A stretch of 12,881 nt of DNA from an uncultured Clostridia bacterium. GTDB taxonomy: Bacteria > Bacillota > Clostridia > Christensenellales > UBA1242. Below the pieces are notes generated by a model that was not told where the DNA came from, did not search any database, and worked only from the letters and a program-made list of their open reading frames with translations. Numbering within the stretch: position 1 is the stretch's first letter; each line of letters opens with the position of its first letter. The position numbers and the translations under genes are program-made. Positions 1,199 through 12,881 of this stretch are shown piece by piece. The stretch covers positions 1-12,881 of the forward strand of contig CALVUB010000015.1 of assembly GCA_944363385.1 (NCBI GenBank), read 5' to 3'.

Positions 1199-1228
1199 TT
1201 GACAAAGATAAACTTTATGTGATATTAT
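1199..1228 (+). promoter_or_regulatory. leuS promoter, extended -10
   Basis: The -35 is TTGACA (1199-1204, perfect consensus). After an 18-base spacer comes TATTAT (1223-1228), preceded by TGA (1220-1222) as an extended -10. Transcription would be expected to start at about 1234-1236, on or next to the ATG of the leader mini-ORF. Confidence 0.8.
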
Positions 1229-1234
1229 AAAAAC

Positions 1235-1267
1235 ATGAAATATAGCAAAAATTTAGCGCTACTTTAA
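1235..1267 (+). CDS. Putative leuS leader peptide MKYSKNLALL
   Basis: This 10-codon ORF (ATG 1235, TAA 1265-1267) lies between the leuS promoter and the leuS attenuator hairpins. Three of its last four codons are leucine, and three different Leu codons are used (TTA, CTA, CTT). TTA and CTA are uncommon here: the nearby dfx gene has nine Leu codons and none is TTA or CTA. No Shine-Dalgarno sequence precedes the ATG. The predicted transcription start falls at the ATG itself, so if translated it would be as a leaderless message. Its stop codon abuts the first hairpin arm. A leader peptide rich in the codon for the amino acid used by the downstream synthetase is the classical design of ribosome-mediated attenuation. 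That it is translated is inference. Confidence 0.6.
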   Translation: MKYSKNLALL

Positions 1268-1353
1268 CTTTTGTGACCACCTGTTCGTGGCACAAGTTTT
1301 GGTTGTGCTAAAAAAATTCTTGCGCAACCAAAAGTGGTTGCTATTTTTATTTT
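1266..1353 (+). promoter_or_regulatory. leuS transcription attenuator: chain of alternative hairpins ending in a terminator
   Basis: Five arms are visible. A (1266-1280) pairs with B (1287-1298): CCAC/GTGG, GTG/CAC and AACTT/AAGTT with small bulges. B (GCACAA, 1290-1295) can instead pair with C (TTGTGC, 1303-1308). C (1297-1308) can instead pair with D (1322-1333) over 12 bp with one G-U. D (GCAACC, 1324-1329) can instead pair with E (GGTTGC, 1336-1341), followed by a T-rich tail (1342-1353), giving a terminator-like stem directly before the leuS SD. Neighbouring pairings exclude each other except A:B with C:D. In the inferred model, a ribosome stalled at the leader Leu codons leaves A free, so A:B and C:D form and transcription reads through. 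A ribosome at the leader stop masks A, so B:C forms and D:E terminates. A T-box was considered: the leader is short and lacks the usual conserved T-box core. Confidence 0.62.
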
Positions 1354-1366
1354 AAGGAGAACCAAA

Positions 1367-3775
1367 ATGAAAGAATATGACTTTAAAAAAATTGAAGAAA
1401 AATGGAAAAAATATTGGGAGGACCATGCGACTTTCAAGACTGATATTTGGGATTTTTCAAAGCCTAAATTCTATGCACTTGATATGTTCCCATACCCTTC
1501 TGGAGCAGGTCTTCATGTTGGCCATCCTGAAGGCTATACAGCCACTGACATTGTCAGCAGAATGAAAAGAATGCAGGGTTATAATGTGTTGCATCCCATG
1601 GGCTTTGACTCTTTTGGTCTGCCAGCTGAGCAGTATGCAATAAACACTGGCAATCATCCTTACGAGTTTACAAAGAAAAATATCGACTATTTCAGAAGTC
1701 AGCTAAAAAATATTGGTCTTTCTTTCGATTGGGACAGAGAAATTTCCACTTGCGAGCCAAGCTATTACAAATGGACTCAGTGGATTTTTAAGCGTCTATA
1801 TCAAAAAGGTTTGGCAAAGTTTATAGAAATGCCTGTCAATTTCTGTGAAGAACTTGGATGCGTGCTTGCAAATGACGAAATTGTTGACGGCAAAAGTGAA
1901 CGCGGTGGCTATCCTGTTGTTAAAAAATTTATGAAACAATGGATAATCGACATTGCCAAATACGGCGACCGACTTATTGAAGGACTTGAGGGCATCAATT
2001 GGCCAGAAAGCACCAAGACTATGCAAAAAAATTGGATTGGCAGGTCTGAAGGTGTTGAAGTTGACTTTGAACTTGTAGGTGGCGGAAAATTCTCTATCTT
2101 TACCACCTGCATCGAAACAATTTATGGTATAACTTTTATGGTTATGGCGCCAGAGGCAAAAATGGTTGACCAGCTGAAAGGTCGCATCAAAAACTGGAAT
2201 GAGGTGGAAGAGTATCGCAAAGAAACCGCCAAACTCAGCGACCTTGAGCGAACCGAACTGAACAAAGGCAAAAGCGGAGTGAAACTTGAAGGCGTTTACG
2301 CTATCAATCCAGTAAATAACAAAAAAGTGCCTGTGTTTATCGGCGATTTTGTGCTAGCAAGTTACGGCACTGGTGCTGTTATGGCAGTTCCATCTCATGA
2401 CCAACGCGACTTTGAATATGCAATTGCGCACAAAATTGATATGATTCAAGTTATTGAAGGCAGAGACGTGAGTAAATGTGCGTTTGAAAAACAAGATTAC
2501 CTTGGAAAAGGTTGCCACCTTATCAACAGCGAAGAATTTTCAGGTTTGACAGTGGAAGAGGCAAAAACAGCTATTACCGCCAAACTTGTCAAAATGGGTA
2601 AAGCGCGCAAAAAAGTCAACTATCGTCTTCATGAGTGGATTTTTGCTAGACAAAGATATTGGGGTGAGCCTATTCCAATCGTTCATAATAATGACGGAAC
2701 AACAACCGCCCTTGACGACACAGACTTGCCACTTGTTTTGCCAGTCCTCGATGACTATAAGCCAGCCAAAGATGGTAGCAGTCCGCTAGCAAAAGATGAA
2801 AACTGGGTCAATGTGACCTATAAAGGCAAAAAAGGCAAGCGAGAAACCTCTACAATGCCTGGCTCTGCTGGTTCAAGTTGGTATTTCTTAAGATATATCG
2901 ATCCGCACAATGAAGAAGAGATTGCAAACAAAAAACTGCTTGAGCACTGGCTTCCTGTTGATCTTTATGTGGGAGGGCCTGAGCATACAACTGGTCACCT
3001 TTTGTATTCGAGAATGTGGAACAATTTTCTTTACGATGAAGGCGTTGTGCCTGTAAAAGAGCCTTTCCAAAAACTTGTTCACCCTGGCATGATTCTTGGT
3101 GCAAATGGTATCAAAATGGGCAAACGCTATCCTGAATTTATCGTTGACCCTAACGATGTCATCGCAAAATATGGAGCCGACACTTTGCGCCTTTACGAAA
3201 TGTTTATGGGGCCTCTTGAAGTGTCTAAACCTTGGGATAACAATGGTGTGGCAGGCGTCAAGAAATTTTTGGATAGGATTTGGAAAATTTATCAAGAAAA
3301 AGAAATTGGCGATTTTGAAAATAACAATTTGAAACAAGTTTACAACCAGACTGTTAAAAAAGTCACCGAGGATTATGAAACTTTAAACTTCAACACCGCT
3401 ATTTCTCAAATGATGATTTTTGTCAATGCGCTTGCAAAAGAGCATAGCTTTCCTAGAGAATATGCTGAAGGATTTTTGAAACTTCTCAATCCAATCTGCC
3501 CTTTTATAACCGAAGAACTTTGGCAAAATATGGGGAATAAAAATACAATGTCCTATGAAAAATGGCCAACATATGATGAAAAAGCGCTCATTAGCGACAC
3601 AACAGAAGTGCCTGTTCAAGTCAACGGCAAACTTCGTGGAAAAATTATTGTAACCTCTTCTATGAGTGAAGAAGAGATAAAAGCCCTTGCTCTTGACGAG
3701 GTTAAAGATTTTGTAACTGGCGATGTCAAAAAATTTATCTATGTTCCAAAGCGAATTTGCAATGTCATTGTATAA
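1367..3775 (+). CDS. leuS: Leucyl-tRNA synthetase (class I)
   Basis: It charges tRNA-Leu with leucine in the cytoplasm, using ATP. The product is 802 residues, a normal bacterial length, and looks complete. The start is ATG 1367, preceded 7 bases upstream by AAGGAG (1354-1359); the upstream in-frame GTG at 1334 lies inside the attenuator stem and is rejected. Visible parts: the HIGH motif as HVGH (50-53); LANDEIVDGKSERGG of the zinc-domain region; the CP1 editing domain with a threonine-rich peptide TTCIET (246-251) and invariant GTGAVMAVPSHDQRD (Asp345); and a C-terminal tRNA-binding end with VQVNGKLRGK. Two signatures depart from the textbook. The KMSKS loop reads KMGKR (583-587), followed by YPEF instead of KGN, and the editing peptide usually reads TTRPDT. 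The second Lys of KMSKS and the Asp of HDQRD remain. Regulation is probably by the Leu-codon attenuator upstream. The gene is monocistronic, ending at the cloverleaf terminator. Confidence 0.98.
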   Translation: MKEYDFKKIEEKWKKYWEDHATFKTDIWDFSKPKFYALDMFPYPSGAGLHVGHPEGYTATDIVSRMKRMQGYNVLHPMGFDSFGLPAEQYAINTGNHPYEFTKKNIDYFRSQLKNIGLSFDWDREISTCEPSYYKWTQWIFKRLYQKGLAKFIEMPVNFCEELGCVLANDEIVDGKSERGGYPVVKKFMKQWIIDIAKYGDRLIEGLEGINWPESTKTMQKNWIGRSEGVEVDFELVGGGKFSIFTTCIETIYGITFMVMAPEAKMVDQLKGRIKNWNEVEEYRKETAKLSDLERTELNKGKSGVKLEGVYAINPVNNKKVPVFIGDFVLASYGTGAVMAVPSHDQRDFEYAIAHKIDMIQVIEGRDVSKCAFEKQDYLGKGCHLINSEEFSGLTVEEAKTAITAKLVKMGKARKKVNYRLHEWIFARQRYWGEPIPIVHNNDGTTTALDDTDLPLVLPVLDDYKPAKDGSSPLAKDENWVNVTYKGKKGKRETSTMPGSAGSSWYFLRYIDPHNEEEIANKKLLEHWLPVDLYVGGPEHTTGHLLYSRMWNNFLYDEGVVPVKEPFQKLVHPGMILGANGIKMGKRYPEFIVDPNDVIAKYGADTLRLYEMFMGPLEVSKPWDNNGVAGVKKFLDRIWKIYQEKEIGDFENNNLKQVYNQTVKKVTEDYETLNFNTAISQMMIFVNALAKEHSFPREYAEGFLKLLNPICPFITEELWQNMGNKNTMSYEKWPTYDEKALISDTTEVPVQVNGKLRGKIIVTSSMSEEEIKALALDEVKDFVTGDVKKFIYVPKRICNVIV

Positions 3776-9746: not shown

Positions 9747-12700
9747 ATGAAAACAAAAAAACTGTTTAATTCAATTTGTTTAACATTTGTCTTGATTGGT
9801 GTGCTTATCGGCGGACTGTTTTTATCAGGCGAAAAAAAATTTATCTCGTCAGATGCTGCTTTTACTGAATATACCGAAATCACAAACAATCTGCCAGAAT
9901 ATTTAAATCGCAAAGGTGGCATTAAAACATCTGATGACAGCATCATTCTTCTTGACGCTACAACCAATAACACCTTTTCTCTTTCAATTGCAGCTGATGA
10001 AGATGACATAATCACAGGTGAAAACGATAACGAACAAAATTACTCTTACAAAATTTCAGATACAGAATACTATTACTTCAACTTTACAAACGCCCTTTCT
10101 CTTTACAAAGATGTGACAAATCAGCAAGACTATACAAATCAAGCAAACCTGTTGGGGACCACCTCTATTGAAAATTTTGCAAGTCCTCATACAAACAACG
10201 CTTTCACAGTCGATGGTCTTTCAGTGCCACCTCAAAAACTGAATGTAAACTTTAAAATTGGTCCAAAATTTTCTGTTGATACTCAAAATCCGCAAAAAAT
10301 CATAACATTAGAAGAAGGTTTATACACCCTTGTGATTCCAATGACAAGATGGTATACATATGATGGCGGGCTGACTTACGCGACTGACTCATCTGACACA
10401 GTTCAAATTGAATATACCTTTATGATTTTCAACTCAAACACCTACTTCAACTCAACAACTGGTCTTCAAAACGCAACAATGTTAAACACAGAAAATGTGA
10501 CCTTGACAAACAACAGCGGTTATTCAATGTTCTATTACTACAACTACACTTCCACTTCTCTTCCAAAATTCTCCTATAACCCTTATGTTTATCAAATCAC
10601 TGTAAACTTCACCGACTATAATCAAAACAGTTTCTATCGCAAAGTGGAATATAACGGAAATGGTTTTAACATCAAAGATTCAAACGGAGACCTTGTCAGT
10701 GAAGGCGAAGAGTATATTATGACTGGCTATGATGATGAAAGCAAGGAGGCATACATAACTTTCAACGAACTTGGCAGTTACGACATTTCATTTGAATATC
10801 TCTATCGCGTTGAAGACAGCAATGAAATTTTTGAGCTTCCTTTTGACCAGCTTCAATCTGATTCATCACTCATCCAATACAACAAGGCACAAAGACTTTA
10901 TATCTATGGCTACCAAACCATGTATACCAACTTCAACGAGCCTGTCGACTCTGCCACAAACCAGTGCCAATCAAGAGAACTGAAAACAATTTCAGAGGAC
11001 AAAACAACTTTTGAGCAATCAGCAGATATCACCGCTTTGTTTATGAAGTCAACGCAGAAAACAGCTTTTTCTCAACCTAGTTCAAATCCATATACAATCT
11101 CTGGCAACGACTCCTTACAATCAGAAGTTCAAGCTTTCTTGAAAAGTGGCAACGCACCATCACTAGTAACGACAAATCAAGTGCCTATCAGATTTTTGTC
11201 AAATGTAAACCTTAAAACAAGTTCTGCTACAAACGACAATACAAAAAGTTATATCTTCTCTGTAACTGGAGAAGGAAATAGTTTAACATTGGATGACTCA
11301 TCGGATGACTCTTCAGCCTTTACAAATGAAAATCAAAACACACCTGGCACTTATGTTTATATCATTCAATATCAATTTGACAGCTATCTTGGAGAAGGTG
11401 GCGTGCAACAAAGCGCATATTATCACTATCAAATCTTCTATTTCCAAATCACAAACGAAACTCCTGCTGTGACTGTTGTAGATGAAAATGGCAACAATTT
11501 CTCAACAACAAGATATACAAACAAGTCAGTTTATCTTATCAATGAGTCAACTGACAGCCCTTACAACGCCGATGTGACAATTGAAGTCAACATTTATGAT
11601 TATGAGACACGTCAATCACAAACGATAGGCTTTCAAAATTTAGCCTCCTATGACAAATCAACTTACACATATTTCGCATCATTATCATCAGACGAAGCCG
11701 GTCTTTTAGCTCATAAAGGAAAAGAAGCTGTTTATATTGACAGCCAAGGCACAGGCGCAGACAGGAAATTTACAATCAGTTATCGCTCAACAATGACAAG
11801 CAACAACTCTTACACCTTCACGATTGACACAGATGAAATATCTTTTGCCTCTCCTCGTCTGGCTGAAGAAGGCCTAGATGGAAATTATTCGCTGGGCAGA
11901 GACATAACAGCGCCTACAACAAACTCACCTTTTGCTTTTGCTTGGAATGAAAAGGCAAGCGGAGCAACAACCTATGGCTATGTAAAATATTTCCAATTTC
12001 AAGCGATTAATTATTATAACACTACAAGCCTGCAAAGTCTGCTCAACCAACTTCTGACAATTGGCGTTGTTCCAGTTTCTTACAAACTTGACTTTAGCAA
12101 CTATTCTGATTGGAGTCCTATTTCAAATGCTTATGGACTTAACACCATTTCAGGCACAAGCATTAAAACTGACGCAGGACTTTATCTTATTGAAGTGTAT
12201 GACATTGCAGGAAATGTTGGCTATGATATCTTTGTGCTTGACAACACTGAGCCTCGCTTTATAAAGATTACCGAGGCTGACACAACAACTCTTGAAATTT
12301 TATCCGCTTCAGATGTGATAGCTGTCAGCGATGCAACCGTTTCGGTAAATTGGGGAGACTATAAAGGCATTATTTTGCAAAACTACTCAGATTTTTCTGC
12401 TATCAAATCTTATGAATATGCATATATGGTTGATAAGGTCAGCGCAGATACAGCCTTACAAGACGCCCTAAGAAAATACACCAACCCAGCTGAAAACTCA
12501 AACATAAAACATCTTTCACAACTTACAGGTAATATTGAAGATAGCCTTCCTTATGCAAGCAACTATATGGTCATTGAAATTGACAACAATTTTGCTGTAA
12601 AAAACACCACTTCAGACAACTTTGTCTTGCAACAAGGCAACAGCTATACAATTGAGATGATATCTAACGATGTTGCAATAGAAGGCACTTATCAATTTTT

Positions 12701-12881
12701 AGTGCGTGACGATTCAAACTCTCGAAGCGGAGGAAATGTGCTCAGCAGTTTGCAATCTTTCCCAAGCGCAATCTTGTCGGTGACAGTCACATCTGACTCT
12801 TCAAGACTTTTCATCACAGATAAAGCTGAAGAAGGCAATATTCTCACTCAAGCAGGTTTCTCTTTGACAGGAACTTTCTAT
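9747..12881 (+). CDS. Giant secreted/surface protein with Ig-like strands (3' end beyond window)
   Basis: The frame is open from ATG 9747 to the last base: 1045 codons and no stop. AGGAG (9733-9737) lies 9 bases upstream. The N-terminus is a typical export signal: MKTKK, a hydrophobic core (about 6-28, LFNSICLTFVLIGVLIGGLF), then SSDAAF as a possible cleavage area. The rest is polar, rich in Asn, Thr, Ser, Tyr and Asp, and almost free of cysteine (one after the signal, in NQCQSR), as in extracellular Gram-positive proteins. A strand-like G-x-Y followed by hydrophobics recurs at about residues 191, 343, 534, 811 and 980 (for example EEGLYTLVIP, DAGLYLIEVYD, EGTYQFLVRD). One is followed by DIAGNVGYDIFVLDNTEPRF, a pattern seen in bacterial Ig-like domains. 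The role is unknown; adhesin or surface-layer-like is a guess. Any LPxTG or other anchor would lie beyond the window. Confidence 0.9.
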   Translation, partial: MKTKKLFNSICLTFVLIGVLIGGLFLSGEKKFISSDAAFTEYTEITNNLPEYLNRKGGIKTSDDSIILLDATTNNTFSLSIAADEDDIITGENDNEQNYSYKISDTEYYYFNFTNALSLYKDVTNQQDYTNQANLLGTTSIENFASPHTNNAFTVDGLSVPPQKLNVNFKIGPKFSVDTQNPQKIITLEEGLYTLVIPMTRWYTYDGGLTYATDSSDTVQIEYTFMIFNSNTYFNSTTGLQNATMLNTENVTLTNNSGYSMFYYYNYTSTSLPKFSYNPYVYQITVNFTDYNQNSFYRKVEYNGNGFNIKDSNGDLVSEGEEYIMTGYDDESKEAYITFNELGSYDISFEYLYRVEDSNEIFELPFDQLQSDSSLIQYNKAQRLYIYGYQTMYTNFNEPVDSATNQCQSRELKTISEDKTTFEQSADITALFMKSTQKTAFSQPSSNPYTISGNDSLQSEVQAFLKSGNAPSLVTTNQVPIRFLSNVNLKTSSATNDNTKSYIFSVTGEGNSLTLDDSSDDSSAFTNENQNTPGTYVYIIQYQFDSYLGEGGVQQSAYYHYQIFYFQITNETPAVTVVDENGNNFSTTRYTNKSVYLINESTDSPYNADVTIEVNIYDYETRQSQTIGFQNLASYDKSTYTYFASLSSDEAGLLAHKGKEAVYIDSQGTGADRKFTISYRSTMTSNNSYTFTIDTDEISFASPRLAEEGLDGNYSLGRDITAPTTNSPFAFAWNEKASGATTYGYVKYFQFQAINYYNTTSLQSLLNQLLTIGVVPVSYKLDFSNYSDWSPISNAYGLNTISGTSIKTDAGLYLIEVYDIAGNVGYDIFVLDNTEPRFIKITEADTTTLEILSASDVIAVSDATVSVNWGDYKGIILQNYSDFSAIKSYEYAYMVDKVSADTALQDALRKYTNPAENSNIKHLSQLTGNIEDSLPYASNYMVIEIDNNFAVKNTTSDNFVLQQGNSYTIEMISNDVAIEGTYQFLVRDDSNSRSGGNVLSSLQSFPSAILSVTVTSDSSRLFITDKAEEGNILTQAGFSLTGTFY

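Follow-up and report, generated by a model that had tools for sequence, protein, structure and literature searches.

What controls leuS at a locus where a mini-ORF with Leu codons and a chain of hairpins lie directly ahead of the gene? T-boxes are the textbook control of aminoacyl-tRNA synthetase genes in Bacillota. For the window (the whole 12,881-nucleotide stretch of Clostridia DNA that we analysed), the original prediction had proposed a leader-peptide attenuator that induces leuS upon leucine starvation. Direct reading and a terminator scan located the Leu-codon mini-ORF, the chained arms and the terminator before leuS, in agreement with its description (Table 1). The segment 1235-1353 folds at -36.9 kcal/mol versus a shuffle mean of -21.7 kcal/mol (z -4.8), and none of 200 dinucleotide shuffles folds as well. 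The whole leader measures ~110 nt with its ten-codon mini-ORF, and two features go beyond the original description: the ORF starts at the predicted +1, and a sixth arm (O) pairs with arm C.

Table 1. Features of the leuS leader region in the window.
Feature	Position	Strand	Details	Basis
Promoter	1199..1228	+	TTGACA 1199-1204; 18-nt spacer with TG extension; -10 TATTAT 1223-1228	11/12 matches
Extended -10	1220-1228		TGATATTAT	read from sequence
Predicted +1 of leuS leader transcript	about 1235			promoter position
Leader mini-ORF, predicted leaderless	1235..1267	+	MKYSKNLALL-stop; ATG 1235; stop TAA 1265-1267	
Sensor codons of mini-ORF	1253, 1259, 1262		TTA 1253, CTA 1259, CTT 1262; GCG at 1256	read from sequence
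Arm O, inside mini-ORF	1252..1259	+	TTTAGCGC	complementary to 3' part of arm C
Arm A	1273..1280	+	partner B	arm pairing and covariation
Arm B	1287..1295	+	partner A or C	arm pairing and covariation
Arm C (1297-1308) with O-pairing 3' extension	1297..1312	+	partner O, B or D; C:D is the antiterminator	
O-complementary part of C	1305-1312		GTGCTAAA	
Arm D	1322..1333	+	partner C or E	arm pairing and covariation
Arm E	1335-1341	+	partner D	
Terminator	1324..1353	+	hairpin D:E 1324-1341; T-rich tail 1342-1353	terminator scan; D:E covariation
leuS Shine-Dalgarno	1354..1359	+	AAGGAG	read from sequence
leuS, leucyl-tRNA synthetase	1367..3775	+	802 aa; ATG 1367	TIGR00396, 967 bits, E 6.4e-291

Elsewhere in the window, a BclA_C-like C-terminal domain (732-1088; E 1.1e-6, below the curated cut-off) adjoined by a repeat-rich stretch lies just 5' of leuS, with a terminator-like hairpin (1104-1131) between it and the leuS promoter. 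An open-ended ORF of 1045 aa (9747-12881) has an N-terminus that looks signal-like by eye and perhaps encodes a large surface protein.

From the sequence comparisons described below, leuS is very probably under ribosome-mediated transcription attenuation, with a leader peptide read from a leaderless ORF and with induction on shortage of charged tRNA-Leu. We infer that transcription begins at the A of the AUG at 1235 and that a ribosome loads on this 5' end to read the ten codons. With plentiful charged tRNA-Leu, the ribosome at the stop codon (1265) would cover arm A, favouring B:C and leaving D free to pair with E, and transcription would terminate at 1342-1353. With scarce charged tRNA-Leu, the ribosome would wait at TTA 1253 (or at the later CTA or CTT), leaving A free, so that A:B and C:D would form and leuS would be transcribed. 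In an untranslated leader, O:C would enclose A:B and D:E would terminate; O:C is thus the predicted off-state of a leader that is not being read.

To delimit the distribution of this leader, we scanned a sequence collection for LeuS, which gave 65 loci, and inspected the upstream regions of 24. The leader with its Leu codons is present in nine (L004-L010, L047, L049), whose LeuS proteins are 78-97% identical to the window LeuS, and absent in 15, whose LeuS proteins are 77% identical or less. An RNA model (R1) was built from nine leuS leaders of genus g1, i.e. the window and eight relatives, leaving out L049, which is nearly the same as L007; L049 was also excluded from the arm swaps, folding and codon counts below. 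On 60 sources (covering 59 of the 65 loci) R1 matched the window and all nine leader-bearing loci, plus a chance-like reverse-strand position in the window (E 0.48). In the genus, R1 found the leuS leader in 10 of 112 genomes, always before leuS and at E 1e-13 or better, and did not find it in the other 102. Any match at E<=1 occurs in 16 of the 112, the six beyond the leuS ten having best E values of 0.23-0.82; the weak matches L115, within a murB-like gene, and L116, ahead of an rplJ-like one, were taken as chance. Across the family, R1 matched 24 of 309 genomes at E<=0.01: ten in g1 and 13 in g19 before leuS, and one in g16 before hisS. A search of 396 genomes of the order with model R2 returned four matches, three known and one new, a g18 leuS leader (L402, MKIEFYTLLS-stop, found too late for the tests from which L049 was excluded), and none outside the family, in a search of a size at which strict filters may miss weak matches. 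In total, 24 of the 25 model-found leaders precede leuS and one precedes hisS. The relatives' genomes are metagenome-assembled, and leuS was called from N-terminal sequence, the calls in the window, L345 and L402 also being checked by family search. A weak tree of LeuS N-termini left the leader-bearing rows of g1 and g19 unseparated. The LeuS of one g19 genome (G148; L345/L210) is 54% identical to that of the window, compared to 78-80% for two other leader-bearing LeuS proteins; a leader of the same kind before so divergent a LeuS may reflect gene replacement under a kept leader.

The sensor codons persist in the leader-bearing relatives through synonymous changes, as the original prediction had anticipated. 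A mini-ORF of 10-12 codons is present in all 22 leuS leaders compared; the third codon of the LALL motif encodes Leu in 22/22, via six different codons, and the fourth in 19/22, via three. Some leaders hold little Leu: L222 (LALPVC) and L402 have two each, and in L005 Phe replaces the last Leu. The 85 Leu codons of the 22 leaders comprise 33 TTA, 23 TTG, 18 CTA and 9 CTT, versus 24, 35, 8 and 75, respectively, among 158 in eight window genes, so that leaders over-represent CTA and TTA relative to a gene set that comes from one genome, the leader set coming from two genera. An alternative that we consider improbable holds that the leader is a nucleotide-conserved, protein- or metabolite-binding RNA whose mini-ORF is incidental and conserved through O:C pairing. 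Arms B (GTGGCACAA) and C (TTGGTTGTGCT) are indeed almost invariant in g1 and O is complementary to C, whereas the CTN/TTR changes that keep Leu at codons 3 and 4 fall mostly outside O.

The original prediction had also called for covariation in the arms, and A:B, B:C, C:D and D:E all covary. In alignment A4 (23 leaders, fitted to R1 and therefore biased towards it), 96.7% of A:B and C:D cells are paired and nine of 15 pairs have changed on both sides; shuffled controls gave a mean of 2.4 such double changes, with 0/500 reaching nine, and slid versions gave 0-3. Because MAFFT left the terminators structurally unaligned across groups, we used an alignment-free arm-swap test, in which arms were cut by script rules and the permutations ignore kinship. 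Among the 22 leuS leaders, swapped arms reached the pairing of the leaders' own arms in 0 (A:B), 3 (B:C), 2 (C:D) and 0 (D:E) of 5000 permutations. Within g1 alone only D:E passes (2/5000, with 4590 for A:B, 3828 for B:C and 535 for C:D), and within g19 alone A:B passes (0/5000, with 159/5000 for D:E). In one arm comparison the L006 terminator was uninformative, its row having been ended too early by the T-run rule. For O:C, the leuS leaders showed no signal in this test (1295/5000), and adding hisS brought only a modest one (210/5000). Individual leaders are nonetheless telling: TTTGGCA pairs with TGCCAAA as O:C in L223, and in L212 a Ser codon (TCA) in place of the first Leu codon comes with a matching C. 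The hisS leader of G141 has the same layout with His codons and argues against a nucleotide-conserved RNA: O, B, C and D are all altered, yet their pairing is retained. Its own arms pair at -13.1 (O:C), -9.1 (B:C), -12.5 (C:D) and -11.5 (D:E) kcal/mol, compared to means of -2.8 to -9.2 kcal/mol when mixed with leuS arms.

We then asked which codons precede other synthetase genes. Three hisS leaders encode the peptides MKTLNILHHHK (model-found, in g16), MKTIYFLHHHI and MKNISFLHHHIK, each ending at a stop codon, L298 and L299 being the two HHH leaders added to the model-found one from 23 inspected of 30 fetched hisS-like loci. In seven genomes we also looked ahead of tRNA-synt_1 and tRNA-synt_2b genes and found valS leaders with VVVV (stop-terminated MKKQFVVVVEKF and MKKNLVVVVNNL, in two g16 genomes) and ileS leaders with IIII or III...III (likewise MLELILAIIIIGHIVLPIKL and MKINAIIISNIIISSNN, in two g19 genomes); the synthetase genes behind the His, Val and Ile leaders were checked by family search. 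The codon turns His, Val or Ile before hisS, valS or ileS and hence follows the synthetase, which also speaks against an incidental mini-ORF, and each enzyme would probably be made more when its amino acid runs short. Of the 16 homopolymer runs present in 159 mini-ORFs ahead of 55 synthetase genes, 11 are cognate; the remainder are III, NNN, KKK, KKK and LLL. By locus, 10/15 are cognate versus a permuted mean of 1.37, and 0/200000 permutations reach ten. Since the leuS and hisS loci were partly pre-selected, we repeated the permutation without them (44 loci): four of eight run-bearing loci are cognate, a count reached in 118/200000 permutations. Most of the 55 amino-acid labels were assigned by size and sequence reading; the test left out three unlabelled loci (L376, L377 and L381) and took in three hisS loci. 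A tRNA-His(GTG) gene immediately follows hisS at two of the three loci with an HHH leader (L224, 1296-1372, minus strand; L298, 2827-2903, plus strand), and the synthetase and its tRNA may thus share one attenuated transcript.

The position of the ORF relative to the promoter is likewise conserved. Each of the 25 model-found leaders has a -35/-10 pair spaced by 17-18 nt ahead of it, and the ATG follows the -10 after exactly 6 nt in 23 of them and after 7 and 8 nt in the remaining two, a constancy that argues further against an incidental mini-ORF; the gap is 7 and 10 nt in the valS leaders and 7 and 6 nt in the ileS leaders. As +1 generally falls seven bases after the -10, the AUG lies at the predicted +1 and the leuS-leader sensor ORF is probably leaderless. 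An SD-like motif is absent from the 20 nt before the ATG in 28 of 31 leaders; of the three with such a motif, two are the hisS leaders L298 and L299, which do appear to be SD-led, and the third is L402, whose motif precedes the -10. Strict promoter-ATG matches with a gap of 6 nt number 23 in 10 genomes versus one in the reversed control; of these, 10 are leuS leaders and 3 infC leaders, and the other 10 open ORFs of 133-403 aa. With gaps of 5-8 nt the 10 genomes give 165 matches versus 15 for the reversed pattern, and at 6 nt six g16/g19 genomes give 239 versus 35; long ORFs, among the matches listed, are mostly at gap 6. Many protein genes (in G000, G028, G069, G141, G148 and others; e.g. L185, L187, L193, L194 and L197) look leaderless, a gap of exactly 6 nt separating their ATG from a sigma-70-like -10; they include polC-, ruvC-, lgt- and sufC-like ORFs by reading. 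On the basis that promoter and ATG are so commonly close in these genomes, leaderless translation appears routine in the lineage.

No other clear cognate short leaderless leader was seen among the promoter matches listed (68, 34 and 40, with repeat places double-counted and places picked by eye). At L286 (G148), the sole additional candidate from these matches, a leaderless-looking 26-codon hydrophobic ORF (MKFLKLIVLFAIAVVVACFLAQCGVF, then a stop codon) is followed by a terminator-like hairpin and a membrane-protein-like ORF; it is possibly another leader peptide. The infC leader (L384-L400; e.g. L384, about 1360-1500) is AGAAGTTTCCACTTCTCACC-like and nucleotide-conserved in three genera, with a later hairpin and U-run. 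Its g1 versions frequently contain a leaderless-looking mini-ORF, of 17 codons in three genomes. We dropped this 17-codon ORF as a candidate leader peptide: the same nucleotides persist without the ATG in L394 and L396-L400, and the leader therefore looks like an RNA element. That so similar-looking a mini-ORF seems to be part of such an RNA lends the nucleotide-conserved reading of the leuS leader some weight. Over the leuS leader, however, no Rfam family matched at or above threshold; freshwater-2 RNA (RF02980) reached 28.8 bits versus a gathering cut-off of 49.9, with its upper-case consensus UAGAAC unmatched, and was rejected.

Next, we simulated the proposed attenuator by partition-function folding of 24 leaders (22 leuS, one hisS and one valS) with a ribosome mask ending at A-site +12, an assumed footprint. 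In unmasked RNA, D:E prevails over C:D in 21/24 (exceptions L004, L217 and the valS leader L334). With the ribosome at the first sensor codon, C:D prevails over D:E in 21/24 (exceptions L010, L215 and L223). With the ribosome at the stop codon, D:E prevails over C:D in 18/24, and in 14/24 or 17/24 with a footprint shorter or longer by 3 nt, respectively. All three predicted states are satisfied in 14/24 leaders. For the hisS leader L219, minimum-energy folding (mask +14) and the ensemble agree in giving all three states; valS L334 attains them as minimum-energy folds at +14, while its ensemble at +12 favours C:D when free and at the stop. In minimum-energy folds, a stalled ribosome fails to bring about C:D in ileS L330 and L333, valS L335 and hisS L298, and in hisS L299 an antiterminator-like fold persists at the stop. 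The window leader satisfies two of the three states: the switch geometry originally proposed holds for the stalled ribosome, which yields C:D, and fails for the ribosome at the stop, where equilibrium folding still favours C:D (-23.9 versus -19.3 kcal/mol for B:C plus D:E, a difference of 4.6). Kinetics could rescue the stop state in the window, if B:C formed before D is made.

The unresponsive equilibrium fold at the stop would also suit a second alternative, slightly less probable than a nucleotide-conserved RNA, by which the same arms and peptide exert translational control, or the hairpin lowers leuS expression without leucine sensing. In the window, AACCAAAAUG at the leuS start is a further possible partner of arm C: the D-arm sequence AACCAAAA (1326-1333) recurs there at 1359-1366, and C could thus also mask the start codon. 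This repeat, however, is not kept in the aligned relatives, T-runs follow D:E in the aligned leaders, and cognate codons would be purposeless.

A degenerate or divergent T-box is a very improbable third explanation: three T-box matches occur in the window genome (before pheS-, thrS- and glyS-like genes, one of them above gathering) and a T-box lies directly before leuS at the distant locus L024, but RF00230 has no match over the window leader at E<=5 or, at E<=0.05, in the attenuator loci of ten relatives, and the leader, at about 110 nt, is half of the 219-position T-box model. A T-box hit over the leader was one of the outcomes that the original prediction had named as refuting it; the absence of one in this covariance-model search supports its attenuation reading, as do the persisting Leu codons, the covarying arms and the codon that switches with the synthetase. 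At the other distant leuS loci scanned, L014, L020 and L023 have a T-box 380-420 nt upstream, which perhaps belongs to another gene. Below gathering but at E<=1.8e-5, T-box matches accompany ileS in three genomes (one of g1, two of g16) and valS in two of g19. The peptide type, with no T-box match at E<=0.05, occurs at ileS in a pair of g19 genomes and at valS in a pair of g16 genomes. The g16 leuS loci show no T-box (three loci at gathering, two at E<=0.01) and no obvious Leu leader.

The transcription attenuator that we favour resembles known systems in several respects. Leader-peptide attenuators act on pheST in γ-proteobacteria and are predicted for leuS and trpS in Streptomyces (PMC1262725), and share with the present leaders a short cognate-codon ORF, alternative antiterminator and terminator and a synthetase downstream, in Streptomyces including leuS itself. 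Unlike these, the present leaders belong to Clostridia (Bacillota) metagenome-assembled genomes, have a predicted leaderless ORF and five chained arms plus an O:C off-state, and serve four synthetases in one family. According to PMC1262725, no Firmicutes synthetase gene was subject to classical attenuation. The original prediction was right that peptide attenuation is unusual in Bacillota, yet there is precedent: His leaders are predicted before hisZ and hisS* in bacilli, where exchange between T-box and leader peptide is discussed (PMC2965389), and His leader peptides precede his operons in three Firmicutes groups (PMC9413887). Those too are His-codon peptides in Firmicutes, some replacing T-boxes, whereas the leaders described here come from another lineage, and add leuS, valS and ileS; a single covariance model made from Leu leaders picks up a His leader too. 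The leaderless attenuators of mycobacteria with a Cys uORF (Canestrari 2020, by way of the citations in PMC9031893 and PMC13236596) likewise are leaderless sensor ORFs with cognate codons, here predicted, but are described in PMC9031893 as controlling translation of downstream genes, whereas here an intrinsic terminator precedes the synthetase. Compared to T-boxes (RF00230), the genes and the logic are the same, uncharged tRNA raising the synthetase, but sensing is proposed to occur by ribosome stalling rather than by direct tRNA binding. We found no report of peptide attenuators for leuS, valS or ileS of Bacillota in the open-access literature searched. As far as this literature goes, the lineage, the control of leuS, valS and ileS there, the chained-arm layout shared across amino acids, a predicted leaderless sensor ORF ahead of a synthetase gene and the predicted O:C state are new.

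We tentatively propose, as a possibility short of an even chance, that leaderless-peptide attenuators replaced T-boxes lineage-wide at the branched-chain and His synthetase genes and that the sensor includes the leaderless start itself. By our reading of its column heads, a table in PMC9031893 gives (p)ppGpp as an inhibitor of canonical translation and an activator of leaderless translation, in which case the sensor ORF would stay read in starvation as ordinary translation falls. With peptide attenuators in some members of the family and T-box matches at valS and ileS in sister genera, the exchange of one sensor for the other should be traceable gene by gene. At about 110 nt and ten codons, with apparently no 5' UTR and an extra predicted untranslated off-state, the design is very small and would offer a clean system for asking how leaderless initiation supports the coupling of transcription and translation.
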